From positions 1-64,000 of the forward strand of contig JAJXUK010000006.1 of assembly GCA_021782915.1 (NCBI GenBank): a stretch of 64,000 bases of DNA, in the 5' to 3' direction. The position numbers and the translations under genes are program-made. Source of the DNA: Actinomycetes bacterium (GTDB taxonomy: Bacteria > Actinomycetota > Acidimicrobiia > Acidimicrobiales > RAAP-2). Below are positions 1 to 17,062 of the stretch, piece by piece. The notes below the pieces were generated by a model. That model saw nothing but the letters and a program-made list of their open reading frames with translations, ran no database searches and was not told the origin of the DNA. Position 1 is the first letter of the stretch. The number at the start of each line of letters is the position of its first letter.

Positions 1-84
1 ACGTCTCGCTTCCTGTTGATGTGTGCAACACCAATCAGACAAGAGAGACCTCTCGTCAGTCAATAACGGTCCTGGGAATTACAC
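1..84. other. Left-edge noncoding stretch
   Basis: These bases are visibly less GC-rich than the genes around them and carry no convincing reading frame. They lie downstream of the minus-strand ABC permease. A weak GAGAG/CTCTC inverted repeat near 43-54 could be part of a terminator, but the loop is too short to be sure. I cannot assign a function. Confidence 0.4.
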
Positions 85-816: not shown

Positions 817-1718
817 GAGCGGCTCCGCTCGGCGCCGATGAGGTCGAGGTAGCGCTGCTCCAGGCTGGCGCGCGTGCGCAGGGACACGACGCTCGCGCCC
901 AGGTCGGACAGGGCGGCCGTGATGGCGCTCACGAGCTCGGCACTGGCCGGTGCGGCCACGCGCAGCGTGCGGGCGGTGCCCGAGGTGACCGTCAGTCCCA
1001 GGGCGCGCCCGAGGTCCTCGGGCGTCACCGGCGCGCTGGGCTCGACCAGGACCTCAGGCTCGCCGGAGAGCTCGTCGAGGGTTCCCTCGGCGAGCACGGA
1101 GCCGTGGTGCAAGATGACCACGCGGTCGCTCACGCGCTCGGCCTCGTCGAGCTCGTGCGTGGTCAGCAGCAGCGCGCACCCACGCTCGGCTTCATGAGCG
1201 ATGAGCCGACGGATGACCTGGCGACCCTCGGGGTCCACGGCGGTGGTCGGCTCGTCGAGCACGAGCACGCGCGGCCGTCCGATTAGGGCCAGGCCCAGCA
1301 GGGTGCGCTGCTGCTCGCCGCCGGAGAGACGGCGCCACGGCGTGCGCGCGCACGCGGCCAGGTCCAGCAGCTCGATCAGCTCGCCCGGCTCACGCGGTGC
1401 GTGGTAGTAGGTGGCGGTCAGATCCAGGACCTGGGCTGGCGTCATCGGGAACCACACCCCACCGCGCTGCAGGAGCGCCCCCGTGCGCGCGACGACCTCG
1501 GCGTGGTCGCGCACGGGGTCCAGACCGTGCAGGCGCACCGTGCCGGCGCTGGGTCGGCGGAACCCGAGGAGCGTCTCGACCGCGGTGGTCTTGCCCGCTC
1601 CGTTGGGGCCCAGCACGGTCACGACCTCGCCGTAGCCCACCGTGAGGCTCACGTCGGTCACGGCGAGCAGCGGACCGAACGCGACGCGCAGGTGGCTCAT
1701 CTCGATTGCGTGGCTCAC
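813..1718 (-). CDS. ABC transporter ATP-binding protein, exporter type
   Basis: This is the ATPase partner of the downstream permease. It has a Walker A motif GPNGAGKTT, the signature LSGGEQQR, and a Walker B ending in LVLDEPTTAVDP. A C-terminal extension of about 90 residues resembles that of DrrA/CcmA-type exporters. The open frame runs further upstream to 1940, but that part would overlap serS and has no homology, so I place the start at GTG 1718. ATG 1700 is also possible. The gene is divergent from serS. A TAGGTT hexamer at 1727-1732 is a possible -10 box. Confidence 0.85.
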   Translation of the reverse strand: MSHAIEMSHLRVAFGPLLAVTDVSLTVGYGEVVTVLGPNGAGKTTAVETLLGFRRPSAGTVRLHGLDPVRDHAEVVARTGALLQRGGVWFPMTPAQVLDLTATYYHAPREPGELIELLDLAACARTPWRRLSGGEQQRTLLGLALIGRPRVLVLDEPTTAVDPEGRQVIRRLIAHEAERGCALLLTTHELDEAERVSDRVVILHHGSVLAEGTLDELSGEPEVLVEPSAPVTPEDLGRALGLTVTSGTARTLRVAAPASAELVSAITAALSDLGASVVSLRTRASLEQRYLDLIGAERSRS

Positions 1719-1770
1719 GGCTAGCCAACCTACTGGGAGGCGCTCGTCGGGGGCGCACCGGGCCCCTTTG

Positions 1771-1776
1771 TAGGCT
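1771..1776 (+). promoter_or_regulatory. -10 box of a probable leaderless serS transcript
   Basis: TAGGCT lies exactly six bases before the GTG start of serS. Transcription would begin at or next to the start codon, which explains why no Shine-Dalgarno sequence is visible. Confidence 0.55.
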
Positions 1777-1782
1777 GGGCAC

Positions 1783-3087
1783 GTGATCGACCTCGCCCAG
1801 CTGCGCCGAGAGCCCGACGTCGTGCAGGCCGCCCTGGCGCGCCGGGGCGTGTCGAGCGCGACCGTGCAGGAGATCCTGGCCCTGGACGTGGAGCACCGAC
1901 GCCTGTTGCAGGAGACCGAAGCCCTGCGCGCCGAGGTCAAGACCCTCTCGCGTCAGGTCGCCGAGGCGCACCGGGCCCGGGACGTCGAGCGGGCCGAGCT
2001 GCTCAGCGCACAGAGCCGGGCTCTGGGTGAGCGCGAGCGCGACGCGGGCGCGGCCACGGACGTGGTTGGGGCTCGCCTGCGCGAGCAGTTGCTCCAGCTG
2101 CCGAACCTGCCGGCGCCCGAGGCGCCGGACGGGCTGGACGAGACGGGCAACGTCGAGCTGCGTCGCTGGTGGCTCGGCATGGAGCGCGGTGCCTCGTTTC
2201 CCACCTTCGAGGATCACCAGCGCGTGCCGCACTGGGAGGTCGGCGTCGACCTGGGCATCCTGGACCTGGAGTCCGGGGCCAAGTTGGCCGGATCCATGTT
2301 CCCGCTCTTTCGCGGCGACGGCTCGCGGCTCATTCGAGCGCTCGGGGCCTTCGCCCTCGATCGGCACCGCGACGCCTACGAGGAGATCCGCCCGCCGACC
2401 TTCGCCTTGACCGAGACGATGACCTCGACGGGTCACCTGCCCAAGTCGGCCGACGACATGTACGCCATCGAGCGCGACGACCTGTGGGCGATTCCGACCG
2501 CCGAGGTCCCGCTGACCTCGATGCGGCGCGGAGAGATCCTCGCGCCCGAGGAGCTGCCGATTCGCCTCACGGCGCTGACCGCGTGCTTCCGGCGCGAGGC
2601 GGGCGCGGCCGGGCGCGACACGCGCGGCGTGCTGCGCGTGCACGAGTTCGACAAGGTCGAGCTGTTCAACTACCTGCTGCCGGAGCAGGCCGAGGGGGCA
2701 TTCCAGGACGTGCTGGCGCGCGCCGAGGGGCTGCTCCGGGAGCTCGGCCTGACCTACCGGGTCCTGGACCTGTGCGCGGGTGACCTGGGCACGTCCTCGG
2801 CGCGCACCTTCGACCTCGAGGTCTACGCGCCCGGGGTGGACCGCTGGCTCGAGGTCTCCTCCGTCAGCTGGTTCCGCGACTTCCAGGCTCGCCGGGCGAA
2901 CGTGCGCTATCGCACCGAGAGCGGCGAGACGGCCTTCGTGCACACGGTCAACGGCTCGGCGCTGGCCTGGCCGCGCATCTGGGCGGCCCTGGTGGAGACC
3001 GGGCGGCGCGCCGACGGCTCGGTCGAGCTGCCCGAGGTGCTGGCGCCCTACCTGGGCGGCCAGCGGGTGATCACTCGGCGTTCGTAG
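1783..3087 (+). CDS. serS: Serine--tRNA ligase
   Basis: This enzyme charges tRNA-Ser in the cytoplasm. At 434 residues it has the normal length. The N-terminal part (about residues 30-105) is the helical hairpin that grips the long variable arm of tRNA-Ser. The class II core follows, with motif 2 around FRREAGAAGRDTRG and motif 3 around NGSALAWPR near the C terminus. The start is GTG, preceded by a -10-like hexamer rather than a ribosome binding site. Its 3' end overlaps the convergent response-regulator gene by 17 bases. A matching tRNA-Ser gene lies at 52682-52769. Confidence 0.97.
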   Translation: MIDLAQLRREPDVVQAALARRGVSSATVQEILALDVEHRRLLQETEALRAEVKTLSRQVAEAHRARDVERAELLSAQSRALGERERDAGAATDVVGARLREQLLQLPNLPAPEAPDGLDETGNVELRRWWLGMERGASFPTFEDHQRVPHWEVGVDLGILDLESGAKLAGSMFPLFRGDGSRLIRALGAFALDRHRDAYEEIRPPTFALTETMTSTGHLPKSADDMYAIERDDLWAIPTAEVPLTSMRRGEILAPEELPIRLTALTACFRREAGAAGRDTRGVLRVHEFDKVELFNYLLPEQAEGAFQDVLARAEGLLRELGLTYRVLDLCAGDLGTSSARTFDLEVYAPGVDRWLEVSSVSWFRDFQARRANVRYRTESGETAFVHTVNGSALAWPRIWAALVETGRRADGSVELPEVLAPYLGGQRVITRRS

Positions 3088-3799
3088 CGCTCTCGAAGCG
3101 GTATCCCACGCCGCGCACGGTGGTGATGTGCACGGGGTTCTTGGGGTCCTCTTCGACGAGGCCGCGCAGGCGCTTGACGTGCACGTCGAGGGTCTTCGTG
3201 TCGCCCACGTAGTCGTGGCCCCAGACGCGATCGATGAGGACCTCGCGCGTCAGCACGCGTCCAGGGTTCTCCATCAGCAGGCGCAGCAGCGCGAACTCCT
3301 TCTTGCGCAGCTTGATCTCCTCGCCGCGCACGTAGCAGCGTCGGGCCTGGGCGTCCAGGCGCAGGTCGCCGCGCTGGATGATCTCCTCGTCGACGTCGTC
3401 GAGTTCGTCGCGCGCCTCGCGCCGGCGGCTGACGGCGCGGATGCGCGCGACGAGCTCACGCAGCCGGTACGGCTTCGTGACGTAGTCGTCGGCGCCCAGC
3501 TCGAGCATCAACACCATGTCGACCTCCTCGCCCTTGGCGCTGACGATGATGATCGGCACGTCGCTCTGGGCGCGGATGGCGCGGCACACGTCCAGGCCCG
3601 AGACCCGAGGCAGCATCAGGTCCAGCAGAATCACGTCGAATCGCTGGGGCGCGAAGAGCCCGAGCGCCTCGTCGCCGTCTCGGGCGACGCTGACCTCGAA
3701 GCCCTCGCGTCCGAGGCCGACCTTCAGCGCGTCGATGAAGGACTCCTCGTCCTCGACGACGAGCACTCGCGTGCGGGTCTCGGCGGCCTTCTTGCTCAT
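3071..3799 (-). CDS. OmpR/PhoB-family response regulator, RegX3-like
   Basis: This is a 242-residue DNA-binding regulator. The receiver domain (about residues 10-125) has the acidic pocket VVEDEE, the phosphoacceptor Asp60 in LLDLMLP, Ser87 and Lys110. A winged-helix domain (about 145-236) follows, ending in the usual TVRGVGYRF. It overlaps the upstream sensor kinase by four bases (ATGA), so the pair is cotranscribed and coupled. The pair resembles SenX3-RegX3, which senses phosphate limitation in actinobacteria. That role is inferred from the architecture, since no phosphate genes are adjacent. Confidence 0.9.
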   Translation of the reverse strand: MSKKAAETRTRVLVVEDEESFIDALKVGLGREGFEVSVARDGDEALGLFAPQRFDVILLDLMLPRVSGLDVCRAIRAQSDVPIIIVSAKGEEVDMVLMLELGADDYVTKPYRLRELVARIRAVSRRREARDELDDVDEEIIQRGDLRLDAQARRCYVRGEEIKLRKKEFALLRLLMENPGRVLTREVLIDRVWGHDYVGDTKTLDVHVKRLRGLVEEDPKNPVHITTVRGVGYRFESATNAE

Positions 3800-5088
3800 G
3801 GCGCGCTCGAGGGCAGCTCGAGCAGGAACGTCGAACCCTCACCCTCGCGCGACTCGACGACCACCGTGCCGCCGTGGTTGTGCGCGACGTGGCGCACGAT
3901 CGACAGGCCGAGTCCCGTCCCGCCGGTCTCGCGCGCCCGACCCGGGTCCACGCGGTAGAAGCGCTCAAAGATGCGCTCCAGGTCCTTGGCCGGGATGCCC
4001 ACGCCCTGGTCGGCGATGGCGATGCGCACGAGGGGCCCGACCCCCGGAGCCTCGGGCTCGACCCGCTCGAGCGACACCGTGACCGTGCCCCCGGGGGGCG
4101 AGTAGACGACCGCGTTCTCCAGTAGCGCGTGCACGGCAGACACCAGCTGGCGGCGATCGCCGGTGACCACGAGGTTGGACTCGGGTTCCTTGAAGAGAAT
4201 GGTCACCTGGTGCTGCTCGGCGGCGGTGCGGATGCGCTCGAGGGCCTCGGCCACGAAGAGGGCGGCTGGCACGAGCTCACGCACTGGGGAACCCTCACTC
4301 TCGATGCGCGACAGGTCCAGCAGGTCCTCGATGATGCGGTTCACGCGGAACGCCTCGGAGTTGATGCGTTCGGCCAGTCGGCTGGCCACCGCCGGCTCGC
4401 GCTCGAACTGCAGGGTCTCGGCGAGCAGGCCGAGCGCGCCCATGGGGGTCTTGAGCTCGTGACTGACGTTGGCGATGAAGTCGCGACGCACCTCTTCGAG
4501 GCGCCGGCGCTCGGAGACGTCCTCGATCACCGCGAGCACGCCCAGGGGGCGACGTCCGTCGTCGATGACGCTGGCGTGCACGGTCAGGGTGCGCCGCGGT
4601 GGGCCGTACAGGTCCACGGTCCGCTCGGCCGAGCCGGTGGTCCAGCCCTCGGCGAGGGTCTCGGTCACCGCCTGGGCCGCGATCGCGTCACCGTAGCGGC
4701 TCGCCATCAAGGTCTCGGCCTGAGTGTTGCGGAAGAGAACCGCCCCGGACTCGTCGACCAGCACGAGTCCCAGGGGCAGCGCGTCGAGGGAACGACGCAG
4801 GCGCACCGACTCCGCGCTGGACTCGCCGACCGCCGTGGTGGCGGCGCTGGTGACCTCCTCCAGGTAGGCCAGGGCGGACTCGAGGCGCCCGTCATCCCGG
4901 TTGGGCTCGACCCCGAGGCGGGTGCCGAGCGCGTTCAGGCGCTGCACGACGGCGCGATGGCCCCGCCAGCGCAGGTAGGCGAGGCCCACGAGGAAGCCCA
5001 CGACGGCCACGCCGGCGGTGGCGAGATACAGGACGATCGGCGACCAGGTGGCGGCGACGTTGCGGGTAGCGAGCAGCACGCCCGCCAT
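3796..5088 (-). CDS. Sensor histidine kinase, SenX3/PhoR-like
   Basis: This is a 430-residue kinase. It has one clear membrane segment (about residues 17-38), then a PAS-like sensory region (about 100-190). The HisKA domain has the phosphorylated His210 in NVSHELKTP, and the HATPase domain has the N box around LLENAVVYSPPGG and G boxes DQGVGIP and GTGLGLSIV. The start ATG 5088 is chosen because it gives the normal N-terminal membrane helix; the open frame further upstream is arginine-rich and unlike any domain. The start of the divergent secretion operon is only 66 bases away, so both promoters share that gap. Confidence 0.9.
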   Translation of the reverse strand: MAGVLLATRNVAATWSPIVLYLATAGVAVVGFLVGLAYLRWRGHRAVVQRLNALGTRLGVEPNRDDGRLESALAYLEEVTSAATTAVGESSAESVRLRRSLDALPLGLVLVDESGAVLFRNTQAETLMASRYGDAIAAQAVTETLAEGWTTGSAERTVDLYGPPRRTLTVHASVIDDGRRPLGVLAVIEDVSERRRLEEVRRDFIANVSHELKTPMGALGLLAETLQFEREPAVASRLAERINSEAFRVNRIIEDLLDLSRIESEGSPVRELVPAALFVAEALERIRTAAEQHQVTILFKEPESNLVVTGDRRQLVSAVHALLENAVVYSPPGGTVTVSLERVEPEAPGVGPLVRIAIADQGVGIPAKDLERIFERFYRVDPGRARETGGTGLGLSIVRHVAHNHGGTVVVESREGEGSTFLLELPSSAP

Positions 5089-5154
5089 TCTCGCAGACCC
5101 GTGCGGGCTCGTGGCGGTTGCGACCGTTGCGAGGTCCCTAGAGAAAGGCCCACC

Positions 5155-5439
5155 ATGTTCTTCGCCGGAGTCACCCTCACGCCCTCGCTGACCGCGCTGC
5201 CCGGTGGTGCGGCGCTGCAGTCCCTCGCCGACGGCGTGGCCGGCTGGGCCCTCCTGGGCAGCCTGGTGGCCCTCGTCATCGGGGCCGTGCTGTGGGCCTT
5301 CGGCAGCCACTCGCAGAACTACCACCAGTCCGCCGCCGGGCGGCGCGCCGTGATCACGTCGCTGCTCGCGGCCATCCTGATCGGTGCGGCCCCGCACCTG
5401 GTCAACTTCTTCTTCACCACGGGCACGTCGGTGCACTGA
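5155..5439 (+). CDS. Small membrane protein, first gene of type IV secretion-like operon (DUF6112-like)
   Basis: This 94-residue protein has two hydrophobic segments (about residues 28-52 and 66-85) separated by a short polar loop, plus a weakly hydrophobic N terminus. In size and topology it resembles the DUF6112/VirB2-VirB3-like proteins encoded next to TrbL-like genes in actinobacterial conjugative elements. That assignment rests mainly on context. The start ATG follows a purine-rich GAGAAAGG. Its stop overlaps the next start (TGATG). It begins a run of six genes in which every junction overlaps. Confidence 0.6.
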   Translation: MFFAGVTLTPSLTALPGGAALQSLADGVAGWALLGSLVALVIGAVLWAFGSHSQNYHQSAAGRRAVITSLLAAILIGAAPHLVNFFFTTGTSVH

Positions 5440-6542
5440 TGGGCGTGGGCTGCATCCTCTCGCCGGCCACCTGCCTCGCCGGGCCGATCGCGCACGCGAC
5501 CTTCTCTGACCTCTTCGGCGCGCTGACGAGCTGGATGGTCGACAGCGTGGGCTGGATGCTGCGCGCGAGTGGCGCCGCGCTGGCGAGCGCGAGCGAGCCC
5601 GCCACCGTGCTCGCCTCGGCCCAGGGGCTCTACCGCACGCTCGAAGCGCTCGCACCCGCGCTCATGATCCTGGGCCTCACGGTGGCGACCCTGCAGGCCG
5701 TGCGCCACGGGGACGCGGGCTCGCTCTGGCGGGTCTATTTCGGGGTGCTGCCGGCGAGCGTGGCGGGCATCGTCCTGGCCCCGCACGTGGCCGCCTTGGT
5801 GCTGCGCGCCGTGAATGAGCTCACGGGAACCGCGGCGGCCTCGGTGCAGGCGCGCACCGGCGAGCTGGCTGCGCGGGTCAGCTCCCTCGTGGGCACCGTG
5901 CCCGGCTTCGGCCTCTTCGTGCTCGCTGGCGCCCTGGTGATCGGGTCCTGGCTGCTGTGGTGCGAATTGATCGTGCGCGTGGTCGTGCTCACCGTGCTGC
6001 TCGTGCTCGTGCCCCTCGTGGCGGGCCTGGCCGTGCTGCCCGCACTGCGGCGCGCGCCGTGGCGCCTGGGTGAGACGTTCATCGCCGTGGCGCTGGCCAA
6101 GTTCCTGGTCGTGCTGGCCCTCGTGCTCGGACTGGACGAGCTGACGGGCACGTCGGCCACCCAGGTCGTCGTCGGCGTGGTGACGCTGGCCCTGGCGGCC
6201 GGCGCGCCGTTCGTGCTGCTGCGTCTGGTGCCGGTGCTCGAGCAGTCGGCCCTGCAGCACGCCGAGGGCGTGCGCCAGCGCCTGGCCTCTTCGAGCCGGC
6301 GCGGGATCGGCCAGGCCAGTCGCGTGCTCGGCGCGATGAGCCCGGAGTCCGCGATGGCTGCGCCGGAGTCACCGGAGGACCTCGGCCTGCCGCTGCTCGA
6401 GGGCGACGGGGAGCTGGAGTTGCCCTCCCAGGAGGGTCCACCTCCGAAGGCCCCGGTGGGCGAGGGCCGGCTGCGTCACGGGCACGTGGCCTACACACGC
6501 GACCACCTGGGCCCCGTTGTGACCTGGCACTGGGATGACTGA
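5439..6542 (+). CDS. TrbL/VirB6-like polytopic membrane protein
   Basis: This 367-residue protein has an N-terminal region with a possible signal or first membrane helix, then about six to seven strongly hydrophobic segments (about residues 60-260). A soluble charged tail follows (about 285-367). This is the layout of TrbL/VirB6 inner-membrane channel proteins of type IV secretion systems. It overlaps the small membrane protein upstream and the VirB4-N-like gene downstream. No catalytic motif is expected. The family call comes from topology and neighbours, because TrbL-type proteins have little sequence conservation. Confidence 0.6.
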   Translation: MGVGCILSPATCLAGPIAHATFSDLFGALTSWMVDSVGWMLRASGAALASASEPATVLASAQGLYRTLEALAPALMILGLTVATLQAVRHGDAGSLWRVYFGVLPASVAGIVLAPHVAALVLRAVNELTGTAAASVQARTGELAARVSSLVGTVPGFGLFVLAGALVIGSWLLWCELIVRVVVLTVLLVLVPLVAGLAVLPALRRAPWRLGETFIAVALAKFLVVLALVLGLDELTGTSATQVVVGVVTLALAAGAPFVLLRLVPVLEQSALQHAEGVRQRLASSSRRGIGQASRVLGAMSPESAMAAPESPEDLGLPLLEGDGELELPSQEGPPPKAPVGEGRLRHGHVAYTRDHLGPVVTWHWDD

Positions 6543-7578
6543 GCCGTCCCTGGGCGAGCCCGATGCGCCGACGCGCCTCGGCGGGCTGCGCGTGCACCAG
6601 CTGGGCCTGCTGGTGCTGGGTCTGGGACTCGGCGCCGACGCCCTGGTGCGCACGGGTCGTCTCGCCGAGGCAGTCGCGGCGGGCGTTGCCACGCTGCTGG
6701 CCGCGCCCCTCGGCCCGGATCAGAGCCTGGCCGAGAGCGCCGCGCTCGCGACGGCCTATCTGCTGCGGCGTCGAGTCTTTGGCGTGTGCGTCGAGTTCGG
6801 CGAGGACGTGAGCCTGCACACCCCGGCGCCGGCGCGCACGCGGGCCTACGTCCTCGAGCACCACGGGCGCCTCGACCTGAGCGGGGCCGACGTGCAACTG
6901 GCTCGCCAGCTCGCCTCGGTGCTCGACGCCCTGGCGACCTCGCCGAGCGGGCGGCACGCCTCGGTGCACGTGCGCAGCGACGGCGAGGAGACCGAGACCG
7001 TGCTCTGTCTGAGCGCCGGGCGCCCGGGCGCCCCCTGGCGACGCGACGACGCGCGCGTCGTCTCGTTGATCGGCCCGGAGCTGGCGGGGCAGCTCTGGCT
7101 GCTGGAGCGCCCGGGGCACCTGCGCTCGGCGCGCGGGCTGTGGCGCGTCGTGCGCGCTCGCGACCTGAGTGCGGCGCGCCCGCCCCTGCTCTGGGGCCTG
7201 CAGCGCGGCTCGAGCCAGGTGATCGCGCTGCACGTGGACGTGTTGGCGGATCAGTCCGCCCGGCGCCGTGCCGCGCGCGGGTCTCACGAGAGCACCAGCA
7301 ACGCGGCCACGGCCTCGTCCTTGGGCTTTCGCCAGAGCGCGCGCTCGAGCCGGCGCGTGTCACGCGTGCTGGGCCGCGAGGCGCGCGTCGCCGAGGGTCG
7401 GGCCCTCTTGCGCGTGGGCGTCTACGTCACGCTGTGGGCCGCGGATCGCGCCGACCTGGACGCGGTGACGCGTCGGCTGTACGAGCGCGCGCGCGAGGCG
7501 GGCATCCGGCTGGAGTCGGGGCGCCTGCGCCAGGCGCGCTGGTTTCGCCTGGCGCTGCCGGGGGGTCCGGGCTGGTGA
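6535..7578 (+). CDS. VirB4 N-terminal-domain-like protein (PrgI/SCO6880-like)
   Basis: This 347-residue protein begins with a short polar segment and two hydrophobic stretches (about residues 20-36 and 45-60), like PrgI-type membrane proteins. A soluble region follows that ends in a pattern typical of the N-terminal half of VirB4/TraC proteins, including the closing RLALPGG. It contains no nucleotide-binding motif. The ATPase half is the next gene, joined through a GTGA overlap, so the two together look like one VirB4 divided into two polypeptides. SCO6880-family proteins of Streptomyces elements have this role. This one appears shorter than those I recall. Confidence 0.6.
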   Translation: MTEPSLGEPDAPTRLGGLRVHQLGLLVLGLGLGADALVRTGRLAEAVAAGVATLLAAPLGPDQSLAESAALATAYLLRRRVFGVCVEFGEDVSLHTPAPARTRAYVLEHHGRLDLSGADVQLARQLASVLDALATSPSGRHASVHVRSDGEETETVLCLSAGRPGAPWRRDDARVVSLIGPELAGQLWLLERPGHLRSARGLWRVVRARDLSAARPPLLWGLQRGSSQVIALHVDVLADQSARRRAARGSHESTSNAATASSLGFRQSARSSRRVSRVLGREARVAEGRALLRVGVYVTLWAADRADLDAVTRRLYERAREAGIRLESGRLRQARWFRLALPGGPGW

Positions 7579-8720
7579 GGCCGTGGACCCACTGGGCCAC
7601 GACGGCCGATCTCGAGGACCTGCGCCTGCCGGCCCACGACGCGGGCACCGGGCTCGAGGGCCGGGCACTGGGTCGAGCCCTCGGCGGCGGGCCGTTCGTG
7701 CTCGATCCCTTCGACGCGTATCGGGCCAACCTGGTGGCCAACCCCAACGTCGTGGTGGCCGGCTCCATCGGTGCCGGCAAGTCAACCCTGGTCAAGATGC
7801 TCATCGATCGGGCCCTGCACCGCGGGCGTCGCGTCGTGGTCGTGGATCCGAAGGGTGAGTACGGGGCGCTGGCGGCCGACTACGGGGTCCGGCCCCTGGT
7901 GCTGGGTCGCGACGGGTGGTGCGACCCCTTCGGTGAGGACCCGCGCGCGCTGCTGCGCGCGCTGCTGGTGGGGGCCGCGGGTGCGCTGAGCGACGAGCGT
8001 CACTTCGCCCTGGACGAGGCCTGGCGGGCCCTGGGCAGCCGAGCGCCCCGGCGTCTGCTGAAAGCGCTGCTGGACGAGCTGCGCGCGGAGCTGAGCGGGC
8101 CGGCTAGCCCTCGTCGGGACCTGGCCCTGACCCTGCGCCGCTTCGTCGACGGTGACCTGGCCGGGCTCTTCGACGGCCCCGGCGAGGCGCTGAGCCTCGA
8201 GGGCGAGCTGGTCGTGCTCGATCTGTCGGCCCAGTGGGCCACGGCCTCGCTCGGGGTGGCCGCGCTGGCCGCGCTGGCCGCCGGGGCGCGCCTGGCCGAT
8301 CCGCACCGGCCGGGCTATCTGATCCTGGACGAGGCCTGGGCCCTGCTGAGCGACCCGGGGGCGCTCGGCTGGCTGCGCGGCTCGTGGAAGCTCGCGCGCT
8401 CACGGGGCATCGCGCACGTGCTCGTGCTGCATCGCTTCAGCGACGTCGGCGCGGCCGGCGACGAGGGCAGCGTGGGTCGCGAGAGCGCGGTGGGGCTCCT
8501 GCGCGAGTGTGAGACCGCGTGGCTCTTCCGCCAGGGTGCCGAGGAGGCCCGGCTGATCGAGACGAGTCTCGGACTTCACCCGCGCGAAGCGGCCCATCTG
8601 GGGGTCCTGGGCCGCGGCACGGCCCTCGTGCGCTACGGCGCTCACCGCTCCCTCGTGCGCGTGATGCCCGACGCGCGCGACCAGCGCTTCATCGACACCG
8701 ACGAGGCCATGCGCGCGTGA
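7575..8720 (+). CDS. VirB4/TraC-type secretion ATPase (C-terminal half)
   Basis: This 381-residue ATPase has a Walker A motif GSIGAGKST at residues 63-71, a following VVVVDPKGEY strand, and a Walker B GYLILDE at 247-253. The late arginine-rich and glutamine-containing segment is typical of VirB4-like motors. VirB4 powers assembly and transport in type IV secretion. The GTG start overlaps the stop of the previous gene (GTGA), and no plausible start lies further upstream. It lacks the usual N-terminal VirB4 domain, which is encoded by the preceding gene. Confidence 0.8.
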   Translation: MRPWTHWATTADLEDLRLPAHDAGTGLEGRALGRALGGGPFVLDPFDAYRANLVANPNVVVAGSIGAGKSTLVKMLIDRALHRGRRVVVVDPKGEYGALAADYGVRPLVLGRDGWCDPFGEDPRALLRALLVGAAGALSDERHFALDEAWRALGSRAPRRLLKALLDELRAELSGPASPRRDLALTLRRFVDGDLAGLFDGPGEALSLEGELVVLDLSAQWATASLGVAALAALAAGARLADPHRPGYLILDEAWALLSDPGALGWLRGSWKLARSRGIAHVLVLHRFSDVGAAGDEGSVGRESAVGLLRECETAWLFRQGAEEARLIETSLGLHPREAAHLGVLGRGTALVRYGAHRSLVRVMPDARDQRFIDTDEAMRA

Positions 8721-9862
8721 GGGGACTGGCGCTGGGCCGAGCGGCCCTCGGACCCCTGGGCTGGGGGCCCTGGCTGCGCCTCGAGGCGCGCGGCTCGCTG
8801 CTCGTGGTCGGACCCACCCAGGCGGGCAAGACCGCCTCGATCGTGGTGCCGGCCCTGCTCGACTGGGACGGCCCGGCGGTCGTCACGAGCGTCAAGAGTG
8901 ACGTCGTCCAGGTGACGCGGGCCTGGCGTGAGCGCCTCGGCCGGGTCCAGGTGCTCGAGCCCGGGCGCGAGCACGGGCTGAGCTGGGACCCGCTGGAGGC
9001 GGTCGACGGGCTGCGCAGCGCCCTGCGGGCCGCCTCCGAACTGACCAGTCGCGCCAGTGCCCACGCCGACTCGGAGTTCTGGAACGCCCTGGCGAGCAAG
9101 CTGGTCGGTGCGCTGTTCGTCCTCGTGCGTGAGCGAGGGGGTGGGATCCGTGACGTCGTGGCGGCGGTGGAGTCGCGCGATCTCGAGGTGCTGGCCCGAG
9201 GTGGCGGGCAGGCCGGGCGGATGCTGGAGGACTTCTTGGCCCACGAGGCGCGCACGCTCGACGGCGTGCTGACCACGGCCGAGACGATGCTGCTGCCGTG
9301 GCGCCTGGATCAGCCCCTGGCCCGGGTGCGCGACGTGCTCGAGGGGCCCAACACGCTCTTCCTGGTCGGCCCGCGCGGCCAGCAGCGCTCCTACGAGGGG
9401 CTCTTTCGCGGGGCCCTGGCCAGCGTGCTCGAGGCTCAGCAGTTGCGGGTGGAGTCCGGTCGGGGCCACCCCCTGCTGCTCGTGCTCGACGAGGCGGCGC
9501 TGGTGGCGCCCCTCGAGGACCTGGACGAGATGGCCGCGAGCCTCGCCGGCCTGGGGGTGACCCTGCTGAGCGTGGTGCAGGACTTCGCCCAGCTGCACGC
9601 GCGCTGGGGCCCGCGCGCGGCCACCATCGTCAACAACCACACGTCACGCCTCGTGCTCGGGGGCTTGGCCGACCCCCAGGTGTCCACGTTCCTGCCCGAG
9701 GCGCTGGGACCCGGGGCCACGTCGCTGCGACGCCTGGGGCGCGGGCGTGGCGTGCTGGTGTGCGGCTCGGCGCCGGTGCGTCGGCTGCGCCTCGTGCCCT
9801 GGTGGCGCCGGCACCGACTCCGGCGCCGGGGACAGCGGGCCCTGGCTACGATGCCGAGGTGA
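8717..9862 (+). CDS. VirD4/TraG-like coupling ATPase, lacking membrane domain
   Basis: This 381-residue protein has a Walker A motif GPTQAGKTA at residues 32-40, an early TSVKSD segment typical of VirD4/TraD proteins, and a Walker B LLLVLDEA at about 253-260. A VVQDFAQL stretch follows, like the TraM-recognition part of coupling proteins. The family delivers substrates to the type IV channel. Most members carry one or two N-terminal membrane helices; here Walker A comes almost at once and no such helix is present. The GTG start overlaps the preceding stop (GTGA). The C terminus is strongly basic. Confidence 0.75.
   Translation: MRGLALGRAALGPLGWGPWLRLEARGSLLVVGPTQAGKTASIVVPALLDWDGPAVVTSVKSDVVQVTRAWRERLGRVQVLEPGREHGLSWDPLEAVDGLRSALRAASELTSRASAHADSEFWNALASKLVGALFVLVRERGGGIRDVVAAVESRDLEVLARGGGQAGRMLEDFLAHEARTLDGVLTTAETMLLPWRLDQPLARVRDVLEGPNTLFLVGPRGQQRSYEGLFRGALASVLEAQQLRVESGRGHPLLLVLDEAALVAPLEDLDEMAASLAGLGVTLLSVVQDFAQLHARWGPRAATIVNNHTSRLVLGGLADPQVSTFLPEALGPGATSLRRLGRGRGVLVCGSAPVRRLRLVPWWRRHRLRRRGQRALATMPR
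9847..9852 (+). promoter_or_regulatory. -10-like hexamer before the glucokinase-like gene
   Basis: TACGAT lies inside the last codons of the coupling-ATPase gene, six bases before the GTG at 9859. The kinase could therefore be made from a leaderless transcript of its own as well as by coupling. Confidence 0.4.
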
Positions 9863-10623
9863 CGTCGAGCCCCGCCCTGAGCCTCGAGCGCGTCCTGGCC
9901 GTGGACGTGGGAGCCACCAACATCAAGTACTGCCTGGTCGACGCCGAGGGCGAGCTGCTGGAGTCGCCGCGGCGGCGCCCGACGCCCTATCCGTGCACGC
10001 CCGAGCGCCTGGTGGAGGTCATCGCGGATCGCATCGTGCGCGCGGAGGTCACGCGCGCCGGCGTGGGCTTTCCCGGCGAGTTCGCCGAGGGCCGCGTGGT
10101 CGGCTCGGGCAATCTGGCGCGTCCGGGCGGGGTGTCGACCCCGGTGGACCCCGAGCTGGACGCTCGCTGGCGCGGCTTCGGGCTGCAGGGCGCGCTCGTG
10201 GCCGCCACCGGGGTGGACGTGCGAGTGGTCAACGACGCGACGCTCGCGGCCCTGGGCGCGTGCACGGGGGTGGGCCGCGAGGTCGTCATCACCCTGGGTA
10301 CGGGATTCGGTCTGGCCCTCATCGTCAACGGCGAGCGCGTGCGCGTGCGCGACGTGGGCGCGGCACCCTTTGACCCACAGCGCACCTACGACCAGGCCCT
10401 CGGCGAGCGCGCACGGGCCGAGGACGAGGCGCGCTGGCACGATGACGCGGTGGCGGCGATCAGCGGCTTCGTCAGCGAGTTCGACGCGGACCGCGTGCAC
10501 CTGGCCGGGGGCAACGCGCGACGCGTGTCGCCCGAGATGTTCTCGCACTTCACGGTGCCCGTGTCCATCGAGGGCAACCTCGCACCGCTGCGCGGCGCGG
10601 CGCGGCTCTTCTACCCGATCTGA
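9859..10623 (+). CDS. ROK-type sugar kinase, polyphosphate-glucokinase-like
   Basis: This is a 254-residue kinase of the actin/hexokinase fold. It has the phosphate-1 loop DVGATNIKY (about residues 16-24), a GFPGEF loop, the sugar-site motif VVNDA, and the phosphate-2 loop LGTGFGLALI. It lacks the CxCGxxGC zinc cluster of classical ROK proteins, as polyphosphate glucokinases do, and its length matches that family (about 250). The likely reaction is phosphorylation of glucose using polyphosphate or ATP. The GTG start overlaps the coupling-ATPase stop. Its end overlaps the convergent amidohydrolase by 13 bases. Substrate and donor are inferred. Confidence 0.7.
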   Translation: MTSSPALSLERVLAVDVGATNIKYCLVDAEGELLESPRRRPTPYPCTPERLVEVIADRIVRAEVTRAGVGFPGEFAEGRVVGSGNLARPGGVSTPVDPELDARWRGFGLQGALVAATGVDVRVVNDATLAALGACTGVGREVVITLGTGFGLALIVNGERVRVRDVGAAPFDPQRTYDQALGERARAEDEARWHDDAVAAISGFVSEFDADRVHLAGGNARRVSPEMFSHFTVPVSIEGNLAPLRGAARLFYPI

Positions 10624-11789
10624 GCGAGCGCGAGCGCCCCGCTCAGCACGGCGCGAGCCACGCGGCGCAGGGCCTCGTCATCGATCGCGAAGTCGGGGGC
10701 GTGGTGCATCCCGGCCCCGCCCGGCGGGGCCCCGCCCACCAGCAGGTAGCAGCCGGGCACGCGGTTGAGGAACTCGGCGACGTCGTCGCTGGGCGTCACG
10801 GGGGGCGTCTCGAAGAACATCAACTCGGGTGCGTCCTCCAGCGCGGCGACGACGACGGCCTCGGTGGCCTCGTCGTTGATGACCGCGGGCGTCGATTCGT
10901 TCAGCTGGAGCGTCGCGCTCACCTCGAACTGGCCGGCGATCGCCTCCACGAGTGCGCCCAGACGCGCGAGTGCCTCGTCGGCCTGGGCGGCACTGAACGT
11001 GCGCAGCGTGCCGCGCACCACGCCCCGGCGCGGCACGACGTTGGGTGCGGTCCCGGCGGCCAGCACGCCGGCCGAGCACGCACAGGCCACCCCCGCGTGC
11101 TCGAGCCCGGCGACCACCTCGCCCAGGCGCGGTGCCAGGGCGCTGGCCGCCAGCACCACGTTGCCGGCGCTGGTGGCCATCGCACCGTGCCCGCCGGTGC
11201 CCGTCAACTCCACCGCGAAGGCGTGGGCCTGGCTCATCAGGACGCCGGGGCGCGTGGCAACGACGCCCACCGGGGCGAGGCTCGCGACGTGCGCGCCGAT
11301 GGCGACGTCGGGCCTCAGGGTCTCGAGCAGTCCGCCCTCGATCATCGCGCGCGCCCCGCCGAGGCCCTCCTCGGCCGGCTGGAAGACGAGGGTGTAGGAG
11401 CCGACAAGCTCGTCGGCCGCGCGCAGGCGGGCCAGCACGTCGGCCACACCCAGGGCCGCCGCCGTGTGCACGTCGTGTCCGCAGGCGTGCATCACCCCGG
11501 GCACGACGCTGGCGAAGTCGACGTCGCTCTCCTCCTGCACCGGCAGCGCGTCAATGTCGGCGCGCACCAGGACGTGGCGGCCCCCGCGCCCGGCCAGGTG
11601 CGCGACGGCGCCGGTCTCGGTGGGACACTCGAGCAGCGCCCAGCCCAGCTCGCGCAAGCGCTCGCAGATCACCGCGGTGGTGCGGTGCTCGGCGAAGGAG
11701 AGCTCGGGGTGTCGGTGCAGGTCGTGACGGATATCGCGCATGGGCCCCTCGGCCGCGTCCAAGTGCTCACCGAGCGCGTCAGTTGTCAT
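10611..11789 (-). CDS. M20-family amidohydrolase (hippurate/IAA-amino-acid hydrolase type)
   Basis: This 392-residue metal-dependent amidohydrolase has an early HRHPELSF motif, the metal-binding HACGHDVHTA (Cys and His ligands), and the catalytic/metal glutamates in FQPAEEG. A lid domain sits in the middle and a C-terminal HAPDF motif with a metal His follows. The family removes acyl groups from N-acyl amino acids or similar amides in the cytoplasm. The ATG at 11789 is chosen because a TAGCAT hexamer sits six bases upstream, suggesting a leaderless start. The true substrate cannot be told. Confidence 0.88.
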   Translation of the reverse strand: MTTDALGEHLDAAEGPMRDIRHDLHRHPELSFAEHRTTAVICERLRELGWALLECPTETGAVAHLAGRGGRHVLVRADIDALPVQEESDVDFASVVPGVMHACGHDVHTAAALGVADVLARLRAADELVGSYTLVFQPAEEGLGGARAMIEGGLLETLRPDVAIGAHVASLAPVGVVATRPGVLMSQAHAFAVELTGTGGHGAMATSAGNVVLAASALAPRLGEVVAGLEHAGVACACSAGVLAAGTAPNVVPRRGVVRGTLRTFSAAQADEALARLGALVEAIAGQFEVSATLQLNESTPAVINDEATEAVVVAALEDAPELMFFETPPVTPSDDVAEFLNRVPGCYLLVGGAPPGGAGMHHAPDFAIDDEALRRVARAVLSGALALAQIG

Positions 11790-11795
11790 GGGCTG

Positions 11796-11801
11796 ATGCT
11801 A
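11796..11801 (-). promoter_or_regulatory. -10 box of a probable leaderless transcript (M20 amidohydrolase)
   Basis: On the minus strand TAGCAT is followed by exactly six bases and then the ATG at 11789. No Shine-Dalgarno sequence is visible. Confidence 0.5.
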
Positions 11802-11847
11802 CGGGTCCACGGGGAGCCGCCTCAGTGCACCCCGCGAGGCGGACGAC

Positions 11848-12147
11848 TCAGCGCGCCGGCCCGTTCGCCACGTCCCGTCGCCGGTCGCGCGCGAGCAGTG
11901 TGCAGATGGCCCCGGCGAGCGTCGCGGCGCCCGCGAACCAGGCCCAGGCACTGCCGGAGGCGAACAGGGCCGCGGCGATCACGCCCAGCTCGAGGCTGAT
12001 CAGCCCCACCATGACCACGGCGTACGGGCCGTACTCGCGAGCGGCCTGGAGCACCTTGTCGGACTCGCTGGGCTTCCGTGACCAGAACGTGGCCAGCACC
12101 AGGCGCTTCTCGGCGGCGCTGCAGCTGCGGTAGGTCTCGAGCCCCAC
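11848..12147 (-). CDS. Hypothetical two-helix membrane protein
   Basis: This 99-residue protein has a polar N-terminal half with conserved-looking SxAEKRLVLATFWSR, then two membrane helices (about residues 43-62 and 66-86) and a basic tail. I do not recognise a family. The GTG start at 12147 is supported by TACGCT six bases upstream. It sits between two unrelated minus-strand genes with gaps of about 35-60 bases, so it may have its own promoter. Confidence 0.65.
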   Translation of the reverse strand: MGLETYRSCSAAEKRLVLATFWSRKPSESDKVLQAAREYGPYAVVMVGLISLELGVIAAALFASGSAWAWFAGAATLAGAICTLLARDRRRDVANGPAR

Positions 12148-12153
12148 GGGCCC

Positions 12154-12159
12154 AGCGTA
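12154..12159 (-). promoter_or_regulatory. -10 box of a probable leaderless transcript (99-residue membrane protein)
   Basis: On the minus strand TACGCT is followed by six bases and the GTG start at 12147. Confidence 0.5.
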
Positions 12160-12181
12160 CCGACGCCGCGTCGGCGAGTGT

Positions 12182-13153
12182 CTAGCGGCCGACCAGCAGC
12201 CCCTCCTCGTCCTCGGCGCTCAGCCACCAGTCGGGTGCAGGTCGTGAGCTCCACCAGGCCGCCACGTCGTCGACGCTCTCTTCGAGGGGGCGCAGACGCA
12301 GGCCGAGCGACTGGGCCCGCGCGGAGTTCAGTCGCATCAGCGTGGAGTCCTCCGGACCGTTCCAGAGGGGGAACTTCGCCGCGGCGTTCGCGCGCGCGAC
12401 GAGCTCGGGCTCGAGCTCGACGACGCGCGAGCCGGCGGGGCCGACGTGGGCCAGGATTCGCTCCAGCGTCTCGACGTAGCCCGGAGCCGGATGGGGACCG
12501 GCCACGTGGACCGCACCGCTCACGCCCGCTGCGGTCACCGTGACGGTGAAGGCGCCCAGGTCGCGCGCGTCGACGTACTGCAGCGCGTGGGCGCGAGGAC
12601 CCGGCACGGCCACGTCGCCGCCGCGCCGTGCCCGCGCGACCCAGTAGGGCAGGCGCAGGGTGGCGTCGCGCGCGCCGATGACGTAGGTCGGGCGCACGAC
12701 GAGGGTGCTGGGACCGAAGGCCGCGAGCGCGGCGCGCTCGCAGGCCGCCTTGAGCGGCCCGTAGGTGGCCCCGGTGATCGGCCCGGCGAGGTCGAGGCCG
12801 TCCTCGCCCCAGAGCTCGCAGTCCTCCTCGGTCGCCCCGGGCCGCGTGGGTGGGCGGTAGGCCGAGATGGAGGAGATCTGCACGTGGTGCCCACCACGGC
12901 CGTCGAGCGCCTCGGCCAGGCTGGTCACGTCGTGCGGTCGGTAGGCGATGGTGTCGATCGTCGCGTCGAAGGATCGCGCGCGCAGCGCCGAGAGGTCGCC
13001 CTGTCGGTCCCCCACGAGCTGCTCGATCGAGGAGGGCAGGTCGTGGGGCGTGCGCCCACGGTTGATGAGCGTGACCTCGTGCCCGGCCTCGAGCGCGGCT
13101 CGGGCGATGGCGTGTCCGACGAAGCTGGTGCCGCCGGCGATGAGAACCTTCAC
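12182..13153 (-). CDS. NAD(P)-dependent epimerase/dehydratase-family protein
   Basis: This is a 323-residue extended-SDR protein. The N-terminal nucleotide-binding motif reads GGTSFVG, and residues INRGRT follow the second strand. The middle resembles isoflavone-reductase-like or plastid stem-loop-binding-like epimerases, with an ISSISAY segment and a TYGPLKAACE segment that supplies the Tyr and Lys of the active site (YxxxK). The GTG start at 13153 is chosen because AGGAGG lies eight bases before it; an ATG at 13177 would place the ribosome site inside the gene. The substrate is unknown. It is divergent from tRNA-Arg. Confidence 0.8.
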   Translation of the reverse strand: MKVLIAGGTSFVGHAIARAALEAGHEVTLINRGRTPHDLPSSIEQLVGDRQGDLSALRARSFDATIDTIAYRPHDVTSLAEALDGRGGHHVQISSISAYRPPTRPGATEEDCELWGEDGLDLAGPITGATYGPLKAACERAALAAFGPSTLVVRPTYVIGARDATLRLPYWVARARRGGDVAVPGPRAHALQYVDARDLGAFTVTVTAAGVSGAVHVAGPHPAPGYVETLERILAHVGPAGSRVVELEPELVARANAAAKFPLWNGPEDSTLMRLNSARAQSLGLRLRPLEESVDDVAAWWSSRPAPDWWLSAEDEEGLLVGR

Positions 13154-13230
13154 GTGAAATCCCTCCTCACGAGCCACGGTAGGGGCTCTCGGCGGAGCCT
13201 CGGCCGTGGCGGGTCCTCAGGGTGGACGGC

Positions 13231-13236
13231 TAGGAT
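13231..13236 (+). promoter_or_regulatory. Probable -10 box of tRNA-Arg
   Basis: TAGGAT lies 16 bases before the tRNA 5' end, a sensible distance for a tRNA promoter. I see no clear -35 box. Confidence 0.4.
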
Positions 13237-13252
13237 GGGAGGCCTGGCGCAC

Positions 13253-13329
13253 GCGGCTGTAGCTCAGCGGATTAGAGCATCGGTCTACGGAACCGAGGGT
13301 CGGGGGTTCGAATCCCTCCAGCCGCACCA
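13253..13329 (+). tRNA. tRNA-Arg (anticodon ACG)
   Basis: A complete cloverleaf can be drawn. The acceptor arm is GCGGCTG paired with CAGCCGC, the D-arm is AGCTCAGC..., and the anticodon loop CTACGGA gives anticodon ACG. The T-arm contains GGTTCGAAT, and CCA is encoded at 13327-13329. With A34 edited to inosine by TadA (a tadA gene is at 52833), it would read CGU, CGC and CGA. Confidence 0.95.
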
Positions 13330-13367
13330 GTGCGCACTCTCGCGTCAGCCGAGCCCGAGGTGATCCC

Positions 13368-13586
13368 GTGAGCGCCGTGACGATCTATGGGGTCCTCGCC
13401 CTGAGCTTCATGATGCTCATGTACGCCCTCGAGGCCCGGCACCGTGGTTACGTGCTGGGTTTCGCGGTGGGCTGTGCGCTCTCGAGCCTCTACGGCTTCC
13501 TCGCGGGCGCCTGGCCCTTCGGGGTGGTCGAGCTCATCTGGTCGGGCGTGGCCCTGCGCCGATTCCTGGGCTCGGCGCGCACCTGA
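13368..13586 (+). CDS. Small conserved-looking membrane protein
   Basis: This 72-residue protein has two to three hydrophobic segments (about residues 4-22, 28-48 and 50-62) and the pattern WPFGVVELIWSGVALRRF at its end, which recurs in small uncharacterised membrane proteins of many bacteria. The GTG start at 13368 is preceded by GAGGTGATCCC, a fair ribosome site. It lies 38 bases after tRNA-Arg and may be cotranscribed with it. Function unknown. Confidence 0.7.
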   Translation: MSAVTIYGVLALSFMMLMYALEARHRGYVLGFAVGCALSSLYGFLAGAWPFGVVELIWSGVALRRFLGSART

Positions 13587-13627
13587 GCGTCACGGCCCGC
13601 GCGCGGCGGCTGGGCTGACGCGGTGAA

Positions 13628-14452
13628 CTAGATGACCGGGCGACCGAGGGCCAGTCGGCGACGCGTGTCGTGCAGCACCCAGTTCAGCGGGAAGTGACGC
13701 AGTGCGCGCGGCAGCGCCCCCCACCCGCTAGCCACGCCGCGCACGATCGCGCGCGCGAGGCGCTCGCGCCGGGCACTCCAGTTGAGCCCGAGGCCCTCGC
13801 GCAGCGGCGCGGGCAGGAAGACGCCCACGATCAGCCGGTGCAGCGGGCCGAGGAGCACGCCGAGGCGCCACGGCAGGAACCCCAGTCCCACGAAGGAGAC
13901 GAGGTAGTCGCGCGTGAGCGGGTCGAATCGGGCGTGCTCCAGGCCGTCGGACCAGTAGGCGTCGAAGGCCGCCCGATCCGGCGGCCACCAGCCCGCCGGC
14001 ACCTGGAGGGTGGTGCCGAGGCGCTCGGCGAGCCGGTAGAGCTCCTCGTCGAACTCGGTGAGCTCGAGGCCCGTCAGCTCGACGGCCTGGCGCGCGCCCT
14101 GGTAGAGACAGGCGGCCACCCAGCCCTGCAGCGACGGGTCGAGGGCGTCGTAGGCGACGGGATCTTCGGGCCCCGAGTGAACCCGGGCGTGCACGGCATC
14201 GATCTGGGCCCGCAGGTCGCGGCGCTCCTCGTCGGTGCCGAAGACCGCGATCCCCAGGAAGGCGAGCGTGGTGCGCGTGCGCTTGATGGGGTGCAGTGCG
14301 AGGGATCCCGAGAACACCTGGCTCGTGGCGACCGCGTGCCCGACCGGCAGCTGGGAGAGCTGCAGCACGACGTTGGCCCCCGCGGGCAGCAGGGCGACGC
14401 CGCTCATGAGGGCGTCGCTCAGGCGCGGGCTCGGGGTGCCGGGGCTGTGCAC
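13628..14452 (-). CDS. DUF2236 (MpaB/Lcp-like) oxygenase-family protein
   Basis: This 274-residue, mostly helical protein matches the DUF2236 family, which includes the rubber oxygenase Lcp and MpaB and binds a b-type haem. The family pattern is visible: an N-terminal AHPIKRT-like region (here LHPIKRT), then a mid-protein VAYDALDPSLQGWVAACLY (where Lcp has its haem-binding residues), then WPPDRAAFDAYW. It is shorter than Lcp and has no signal peptide. The GTG start has TACGCT six bases upstream. The substrate is unknown. Confidence 0.75.
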   Translation of the reverse strand: MHSPGTPSPRLSDALMSGVALLPAGANVVLQLSQLPVGHAVATSQVFSGSLALHPIKRTRTTLAFLGIAVFGTDEERRDLRAQIDAVHARVHSGPEDPVAYDALDPSLQGWVAACLYQGARQAVELTGLELTEFDEELYRLAERLGTTLQVPAGWWPPDRAAFDAYWSDGLEHARFDPLTRDYLVSFVGLGFLPWRLGVLLGPLHRLIVGVFLPAPLREGLGLNWSARRERLARAIVRGVASGWGALPRALRHFPLNWVLHDTRRRLALGRPVI

Positions 14453-14458
14453 CGCGTC

Positions 14459-14464
14459 AGCGTA
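14459..14464 (-). promoter_or_regulatory. -10 box of a probable leaderless transcript (DUF2236 gene)
   Basis: On the minus strand TACGCT is followed by six bases and the GTG start at 14452. It lies within the 25-base gap after oxyR. Confidence 0.5.
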
Positions 14465-14477
14465 GGGGCCCGAGCGC

Positions 14478-16999: not shown

Positions 17000-17062
17000 G
17001 GGAGCCTCCAGAGTGATGAGGGGTGCCGCGGCGGCGGGACGCGCCCGCCGCCACGGCCAGGA

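Follow-up and report, generated by a model that had tools for sequence, protein, structure and literature searches.

Why should five genes of conjugation type stand beside serS and a pair of two-component genes in a bacterial chromosome? The question is raised by the first 64,000 nucleotides of contig JAJXUK010000006.1 from an acidimicrobial actinobacterium (assembly GCA_021782915.1), here called the window, which form the start of one contig in a genome of 2.15 Mb, 84 contigs and 97% completeness. The five genes, T1 to T5, encode a candidate pilin, a VirB6-like membrane protein, the VirB4 ATPase in two parts and a VirD4-type coupling ATPase (VirD4A), and are referred to as the cassette, or locus A. 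A preliminary description regarded them as a stripped-down secretion or DNA-uptake machine, possibly domesticated, with a mobile-element remnant as the alternative. The comparisons described below favour, as the probable reading, a domesticated conjugation system that is largely vertically inherited and divided between two loci; the cassette would be its locus A, and the system would nick and export chromosomal DNA. With a relaxase, a second VirD4 and a shared DNA element in the same genome, it looks less like a bare device than like a conjugation system split in two. Genomes, loci and families are labelled G, L and f; the window's genus belongs to family f1.

The cassette occupies a fixed chromosomal site. 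Regions were fetched around most strong matches, not all, and in 98 of the 119 loci with T1 a senX3-like gene lies divergently upstream of it. Such a cassette was counted in 93 genomes and the window (94 in total), including the T1 remnant of G026 and some loci cut by contig ends; five senX3-linked loci from a second genome collection (L007-L011) were left out because they may duplicate species already counted. The linked families number 14 (f1, f21, f31, f32, f33, f39, f43, f45, f47, f48, f49, f50, f60 and f61), and gene order is conserved across them within one order. T5 is matched at E ≤ 1e-40 in 65 of 100 same-family genomes. At E ≤ 1e-8 the T1 profile has matches in 121 of 394 class-level genomes and in 37 of 298 at the level of the phylum, counts which include mobile-type homologues at weaker E. 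In the window's genus, T1 occurs in 31 genomes and only G084 is without it. Of the 21 loci that are not senX3-linked, eight have a MobF-type relaxase upstream; seven of these belong to f16, and the eighth is the mobile set L178. The other 13 are mobile-type or undetermined sets (L174-L177, L179-L182, L234), contig edges (L219, L233), and G014 and G544, in which senX3 is not adjacent to T1.

Two observations of the preliminary description, the lack of an integrase nearby and of direct repeats at the edges, were borne out. No integrase or recombinase was found by Pfam scanning among ten flanking genes (85-1718 and 10611-17626), two of which had no match at all, and no repeat pair of at least 20 nucleotides (nt) brackets the cassette within positions 1-16000 of the window. 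Neither an integrase with flanking attachment repeats nor a sporadic distribution at varying sites, the marks of an integrative and conjugative element, was seen for the cassette. The best plasmid match of T4 is 32% identical. The cassette appears, from these comparisons, to be no mobile remnant and to form a lasting part of the chromosome in a large actinobacterial group. Mobile-type sets were met elsewhere. A separate fragment of this kind (L096, contig C15 of the same genome, 7.6 kb) encodes an ArdC-like protein (PF08401), a VirD4 of 598 amino acids (aa), a VirB4 of 555 aa and an SCO6880-like protein of 481 aa. In the mobile-type set L012:5946-9429 of MAG nzgw85, VirD4 is followed by DprA (PF02481, 1.1e-58) and then by a ComF-like gene of phosphoribosyltransferase type (PF00156, 4.4e-4, below cut-off); DprA and ComF are linked to incoming single-stranded DNA.

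Inheritance together with the chromosome is indicated by the patristic distances of T4 and serS, which correlate with a Spearman coefficient of 0.76 over 47 loci and 0.63 over 26 same-genus loci, a level reached by none of 2000 permutations. A T4 tree of 87 rows, built by a quick method and rooted at the midpoint, places the window's genus in one clade with a Shimodaira-Hasegawa-like likelihood-ratio support of 100, and f16 in another with 95. The mobile rows need two changes, of which the starred branches force only one; therefore a single domestication is possible, and the cassette may descend from one such event. The ratio of nonsynonymous to synonymous substitution (dN/dS) in five close pairs is 0.02-0.10 for T1, 0.10-0.16 for T2, 0.04-0.16 for T4 and 0.05-0.13 for T5, and in four pairs 0.16-0.34 for T3. 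By these estimates all five genes are under purifying selection.

The nucleotide-binding motifs are likewise kept. The Walker A motif of T4 is present in 30 of 31 open reading frames (ORFs) of the genus, 14 of 14 of f1 and 30 of 30 of other families. For VirD4A a strict pattern missed 15 of 30 other-family and 2 of 14 f1 ORFs; under a relaxed pattern all 24 re-read ORFs (the 17 missed and seven others, mobile sets included) give GP[TS]Q[ST]xKT. The domestication considered by the preliminary description is strongly supported because the site is fixed, the synteny extends over 14 families, selection is purifying and the Walker motifs are intact. As a separate observation, many VirD4 proteins of fixed and mobile sets alike read GPTQ[ST]xKT, with H, M, F, R or another residue where the second glycine usually stands (L105, L107, L111, L167, L173, L174-L178, L012 and others). 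VirD4A also varies in hydrophobicity ahead of Walker A: no strongly hydrophobic stretch occurs in 28 of 29 genus rows (maximum 1.1; L093 reaches 1.8), while 12 f1 rows give 1.5-2.8 and 15 other-family rows 1.3-3.1, some of the stretches being very short and 17 rows lying outside the evaluation. In G088 T4 has no Walker A match, and its relaxase match, like that of G009, contains in-frame stops; this may reflect decay or assembly error.

The preliminary description saw no relaxase, and this agrees with what the window shows, but elsewhere in the genome a MobF-type relaxase (RelaxB) and a second coupling ATPase (VirD4B) form another conserved locus, locus B. The TrwC/MobF family PF08751 is matched in 147 of 298 genomes of the order and in all 52 genomes of a set chosen mostly for T1 carriage (32 from the window's genus, 15 from the other genera of f1 and five from other families), which rules out a relaxase-free reading. 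RelaxB (347 aa, contig C1; PF08751 at 93 bits against a cut-off of 25) lies on the same strand as, and directly after, a pafBC-like gene with a WYL domain; it is convergent to VirD4B, which matches PF02534 and PF12696. The surroundings contain rnhB, cofC, moaC, two tldD/pmbA genes and, by reading of the sequence, dxs. The same fixed arrangement is found in 16 family relatives. The relaxase adjoins pafBC on one strand in 18 of the 21 locus-B regions, namely all 17 of f1 and that of f45; a convergent VirD4B is likewise present in 18, all 17 of f1 and that of f60. All 36 locus-B rows keep PHxHxH, and 35 keep the first N-terminal tyrosine, the remaining row being unaligned; we take these to be the catalytic residues of the relaxase. 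In one close pair dN/dS is 0.17 for RelaxB and 0.09 for VirD4B, and the relaxase tree holds the genus together (100). The mobile relaxase of L178 is fused to a helicase (PF13604), and RelaxB shows none.

Family f16 provides a link between the two loci. In seven of its genomes a MobF-type relaxase lies divergently by T1, within 0.25 kb in six and at 1.4 kb in one, and TrwC identity was confirmed for L172; such proximity supports a functional pairing of relaxase and cassette. These f16 loci (L171, L172:12404-14500, L228-L232) have no gene between T1 and T2 and carry the relaxase in place of senX3, which may be a re-assembled or an ancestral arrangement.

The second link is a short DNA element. 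The pattern [GC]CGACCGTT[GA] has a single copy in the window, before T1, and GCGACCGTTG occurs once in 20 kb around locus B, 6 nt ahead of VirD4B. When the 55 nt ahead of gene starts were scanned for CGACCGTTG with at most one mismatch, it was found before T1 in 30 of 30 same-genus loci (25 exact), before RelaxB in 16 of 17 and before VirD4B in 7 of 10, seven further VirD4B genes having been dropped, mostly for too little upstream DNA. Sixteen control gene sets gave 2 of 295 starts. Across whole genomes GCGACCGTTG has 7 matches against 1 for the reversed word in G040 and 14 against 0 in G075. The sites that recur in three species (the window's own, G040 and G075) stand 25 nt before T1 in each, 16-23 nt before RelaxB and 7 nt before dnaB (in G040 by reading the sequence), as well as before VirD4B if TCGACCGTTG of G040 is counted; a MoxR-like AAA ATPase gene carries the element in two species. 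The remaining matches fall within genes or ahead of genes met a single time. A further pattern, HCGACCGTTGNG, gave 3, 5 and 6 matches against 4, 3 and 2 for reversed controls, with 12 of 14 matches inside called genes and one relevant added site, that of VirD4B in G040. On our reading the element is an imperfect palindrome, GCRAC-S-GTYGC, and by these counts one promoter-proximal element ties loci A and B.

Further features were noted around these sites. In the own genome the MoxR-like gene (PF07728; L314:2-1479, L333) precedes a gene that has an HELMH motif and no Pfam match. Upstream of VirD4B lie two more conserved words, AAAGTTCACTC and TGTCAAGCATTTCG (L097:11475-11558), candidate parts of a promoter or an origin of transfer; their region recurs in most locus-B regions of the genus (L283-L291) and partly in L292-L295 and L301, and TGTCAAGCATTTCG is partly kept even in family f60. 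The PafBC promoter consensus, compared by eye, was not convincingly found in the upstream regions.

From these parts a working sequence can be proposed for the domesticated conjugation system. RelaxB, which lacks the helicase domain of its mobile relatives, would nick a chromosomal origin and stay bound to the strand, and DnaB, whose gene has the same promoter-proximal element, may take over the unwinding for which the shortened relaxase is not equipped. VirD4B, VirD4A or both would then pass the relaxase-DNA complex to a channel of VirB3/4 and VirB6 energised by VirB4 (T3/T4), with T1 as a pilus or contact subunit. Single-stranded chromosomal DNA would enter a neighbouring cell and serve recombination or repair. 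The sequences show the parts, the kept motifs, the fixed sites, inheritance with the chromosome and the shared element; we infer the joint action of the loci, the direction of export, DNA as cargo and damage control through PafBC. For the last of these, mycobacterial PafBC is described as activated by single-stranded DNA (PMC11804915); together with the pafBC-relaxase linkage, this suggests by analogy that the system may be under damage-linked control.

The coordinates of locus A and its neighbours are collected in the table. The five same-strand genes with overlapping junctions were confirmed, the overlaps within T1-T5 being 1, 8, 4 and 4 bases. The cluster had been drawn to position 10623; its last part is a sixth overlapping gene, a ROK-family kinase, which shares 4 bases with T5, and the cassette itself ends with T5. 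The serS, regX3 and senX3 genes lie to its left as reported.

Table. Features of locus A and its surroundings in the window (positions on the forward strand).
Feature	Position	Strand	Evidence or remark
GCGACCGTTG element	5120..5129	+	25 nt ahead of T1 start
T1, 94-aa VirB2/CedA1-like pilin candidate (DUF6112)	5155..5439	+	PF19607 7.9e-8; predicted two-helix hairpin
T2, 367-aa VirB6-like polytopic membrane protein	5439..6542	+	Fold match; no sequence family
T3, 347-aa SCO6880-type N-terminal part of VirB4	6535..7578	+	NF042935 2.9e-14, below curated cut-off
T4, 381-aa VirB4 ATPase part	7575..8720	+	PF12846 (AAA_10) 1.5e-10; Walker motifs
T5 (VirD4A), 381-aa coupling ATPase	8717..9862	+	PF02534 (T4SS-DNA_transf) 8.5e-24, PF12696 (TraG-D_C) 5.8e-14
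ROK-family kinase, frequent right neighbour, not a secretion gene	9859..10623	+	PF00480 7.7e-15
senX3-like (PhoR-type) histidine kinase, conserved divergent left neighbour	3796..5088	-	NCBIfam best PnpS/PhoR, below cut-offs; synteny
regX3-like (PhoB-type) response regulator, conserved left neighbour	3071..3799	-	NCBIfam YycF/MtrA/PhoB, below cut-offs; synteny
serS, housekeeping neighbour	1783..3087	+	TIGR00414 1.3e-118

Third-position guanine-cytosine content is 0.90-0.95 across T1-T5. The division of VirB4 into two pieces holds in the window: T3 has a single hydrophobic segment (residues 20-38 by hydropathy) and matches the C-terminal part of the SCO6880 family, and the ATPase is carried by T4, with Walker A GSIGAGKS and Walker B LILDEA. 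Of 24 same-genus loci four gave no T3 match, and in at least six the two genes form a single ORF of 732-744 aa. The VirD4 assignment of T5 stands on its two family matches; its Walker A reads GPTQAGKT, and no hydrophobic segment was found in it by hydropathy. In f1 loci a ROK gene lies downstream, often preceded by a cytochrome P450 gene. A gene between T5 and ROK in several other loci was considered as an extra secretion part and rejected, the one that was family-scanned (L102) being a P450 (PF00067, 3.7e-25); that of L110 reads differently. In G130, a single-contig genome, a gene for flagellar hook-associated FlgK (L165:12169-13557; PF22638, 4.5e-42) follows shortly downstream of the cassette.

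The assignments of T1 and T2 depend partly on predicted structures. The preliminary statement that no pilin is visible is now doubtful, the small membrane protein T1 being pilin-like in its family match and in its predicted hairpin, which has a mean predicted local distance difference test score (pLDDT) of 76. Its top VIA-align row is 8dfu, the conjugation pilus of Aeropyrum pernix (79 aligned residues, root-mean-square deviation 2.1), at a Z of 9.0 that lies inside the program's stated noise range for helical hairpins, where such scores can arise by chance. The T4SS_pilin and TrbC families were matched below cut-off only, and a search of solved chains with the T1 profile found a single weak match (9vf4, TrbC/VirB2, E 0.75). 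Since a two-helix hairpin at Z 9 falls in that noise range, the call rests on all these lines jointly, and they suggest a VirB2/CedA1-like pilin candidate. The AlphaFold2 model of T2 (pLDDT 83) recovers R388 TrwI/VirB6 chains at Foldseek ranks 1, 3, 4, 5 and 8 (probability 0.99-1.00, E 0.013-0.13, template-modelling score to the query 0.29-0.35), rank 2 being a designed helical protein; in VIA-align the designed protein comes first (Z 10.4) and VirB6 next (Z 9.9). No Foldseek row for either model fell under E 0.001, and T2 matched no sequence family in Pfam and NCBIfam profile scans. The modelled fold suggests that T2 may be VirB6-like.

Several findings weigh against a two-locus, vertically inherited conjugation system. 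No origin of transfer was identified and no transfer was observed. Gene calling and tblastn, applied to locus A and not to whole genomes, recognised neither a VirB8-like gene nor a cell-wall hydrolase there. The T4 tree splits family f1, whose other genera need three changes, all three forced, and the other senX3-linked families need six, three of them forced; replacement at the site or tree error is therefore possible. Several branches of this tree are long and f16 falls among the senX3-linked rows, which speaks against a simple history. In the relaxase tree the other f1 rows are split as well (three changes, two forced). G066 and G075 have no VirD4A, T1-T4 being followed directly by the ROK gene, and they retain VirD4B. 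The site of G026 holds only a 38-residue T1 remnant, yet locus B is kept. Relaxase and VirD4B are also present in G084, in which T1 was not matched and the site itself was not seen. Strict co-inheritance of loci A and B therefore does not hold. At locus B, RelaxB scores 83.5 with the NCBIfam MobF model, below the cut-off of 100, the relaxase is not adjacent to pafBC in f49 (G147) and f32 (G130), and the relaxase matches of G009 (C1:67109-67753, one stop) and G088 (C32:675-1325, two stops) contain in-frame stops. In the own genome GSGACCGTTG has 15 matches against 11 reversed, barely above control. Nearly all genomes are fragmented assemblies.

The main rival is a DNA importer like the archaeal Ced system, in which the pilin-VirB6-VirB4 core would take up DNA in place of a lost ComEC, with relaxase and VirD4s accessory or otherwise employed. 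ComEC (PF03772) was found in 171 of 298 order genomes. None of these is among the 51 senX3-linked genomes of the sample or the seven of f16, and all 171 belong to the 247 outside the linked count; it occurs in seven of 87 order genomes with any T4 match, none of the seven shown to be senX3-linked. The contrast (Fisher p 1e-22, treating genomes as independent, which they are not) would suit an importer, but it runs between large clades and does not reflect independent events. The core corresponds to CedA1, CedA and CedB (PMC9905601), 8dfu leads the structural rows of T1, and VirD4A is dispensable in G066 and G075. On the other side, a motif-keeping relaxase and two VirD4s under purifying selection, tied by the element to the cassette, fit donor functions, and the same source reports no recognisable relaxase in the archaea. 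Import as in Ced is judged unlikely.

A still less probable reading is secretion, in which the machine frees relaxase-bound DNA into the medium or delivers proteins to other cells. Two VirD4 paralogues exist here, and VirD4 proteins can recruit protein cargo; however, no effector-like gene was recognised by eye as kept at either locus, no effector search having been made, and the relaxase and dnaB among the element-bearing genes speak for DNA. It is very improbable that loci A and B are separate systems, in which case the element would belong to promoters in general and RelaxB would have been taken over for repair of the chromosome or for regulation. The persistence of locus B where A is lost or unseen (G026, G084) and the own-genome matches close to control agree with separation, but the element stands at 53 of 57 target starts against 2 of 295 control starts, each genome has only a few matches, which in three species precede the same genes, and the f16 relaxase lies by T1. 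A decaying or recent mobile element, the component types of which are those of actinobacterial conjugative elements and of the C15 fragment, is rejected as next to impossible on the fixed site in 14 families and more than one strain, the T4-serS correlation, dN/dS, the 32% plasmid identity, and the negative repeat and integrase searches.

The significance of an exporting, two-locus conjugation system would lie in genes that are otherwise confined to mobile DNA having become an inherited chromosomal part across families. If this is true, bacteria that have no ComEC would gain a way to exchange homologous DNA. Two loci, one shared element and natural losses of VirD4A or the cassette would also make a genetic system for testing why cells keep conjugation for themselves. 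Opinion is evenly poised on a wider claim, that in a large, ComEC-less Acidimicrobiales-like clade conjugation is a core inherited trait, a regulon of two loci mobilising the own chromosome, possibly on DNA damage, and a bacterial counterpart of Ced with a relaxase. The make-up of such a regulon, in which the pilin-VirB6-VirB4-VirD4 set adjoins two-component genes of phosphate type, the relaxase-VirD4 pair adjoins a PafBC-like regulator and dnaB is a further member, is put forward with the same half-confidence. In the literature searched, whose coverage mostly leaves out subscription journals, no paper was recognised as describing this two-locus system.

Among known systems, Helicobacter ComB and the type IV secretion system of the gonococcal island are examples of such machinery repurposed for cellular DNA traffic, as is proposed here. 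ComB works with ComEC, which was not found here, and the gonococcal set is an acquired island. The archaeal Ced and Ted systems, as described in PMC9905601, are likewise chromosomal and domesticated, with a VirB2-like pilin, VirB6 and VirB4; of this set VirB4 is clear here, and the VirB2- and VirB6-like members have weak fold and family evidence. The ced genes are reported there as induced by ultraviolet light, which may be compared with the pafBC linkage. The present system differs in being bacterial and in having two VirD4s and a MobF-type relaxase (TrwC-type match in 52 of 52 genomes), for which the archaea show no recognisable counterpart in that account. Actinobacterial conjugative elements (for example L178; survey PMC3218068) combine the same DUF6112-type protein with VirB6-like, VirB4, VirD4 and MobF relaxase components. 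L178 adds an SLT transglycosylase, a helicase-fused relaxase and, between T1 and T2, a gene for 204 aa without a Pfam match, which from place and size we would guess to be VirB8-like; here those parts are absent or reduced, and two fixed sites share the set between them. The chromosomal systems of Patescibacteria, as described in PMC12102498, are also widespread and of a reduced, monoderm-type build, with VirD4 often far from virB4. Most of those clusters are reported there as having no relaxase, whereas here one was matched in each of the 52 genomes.

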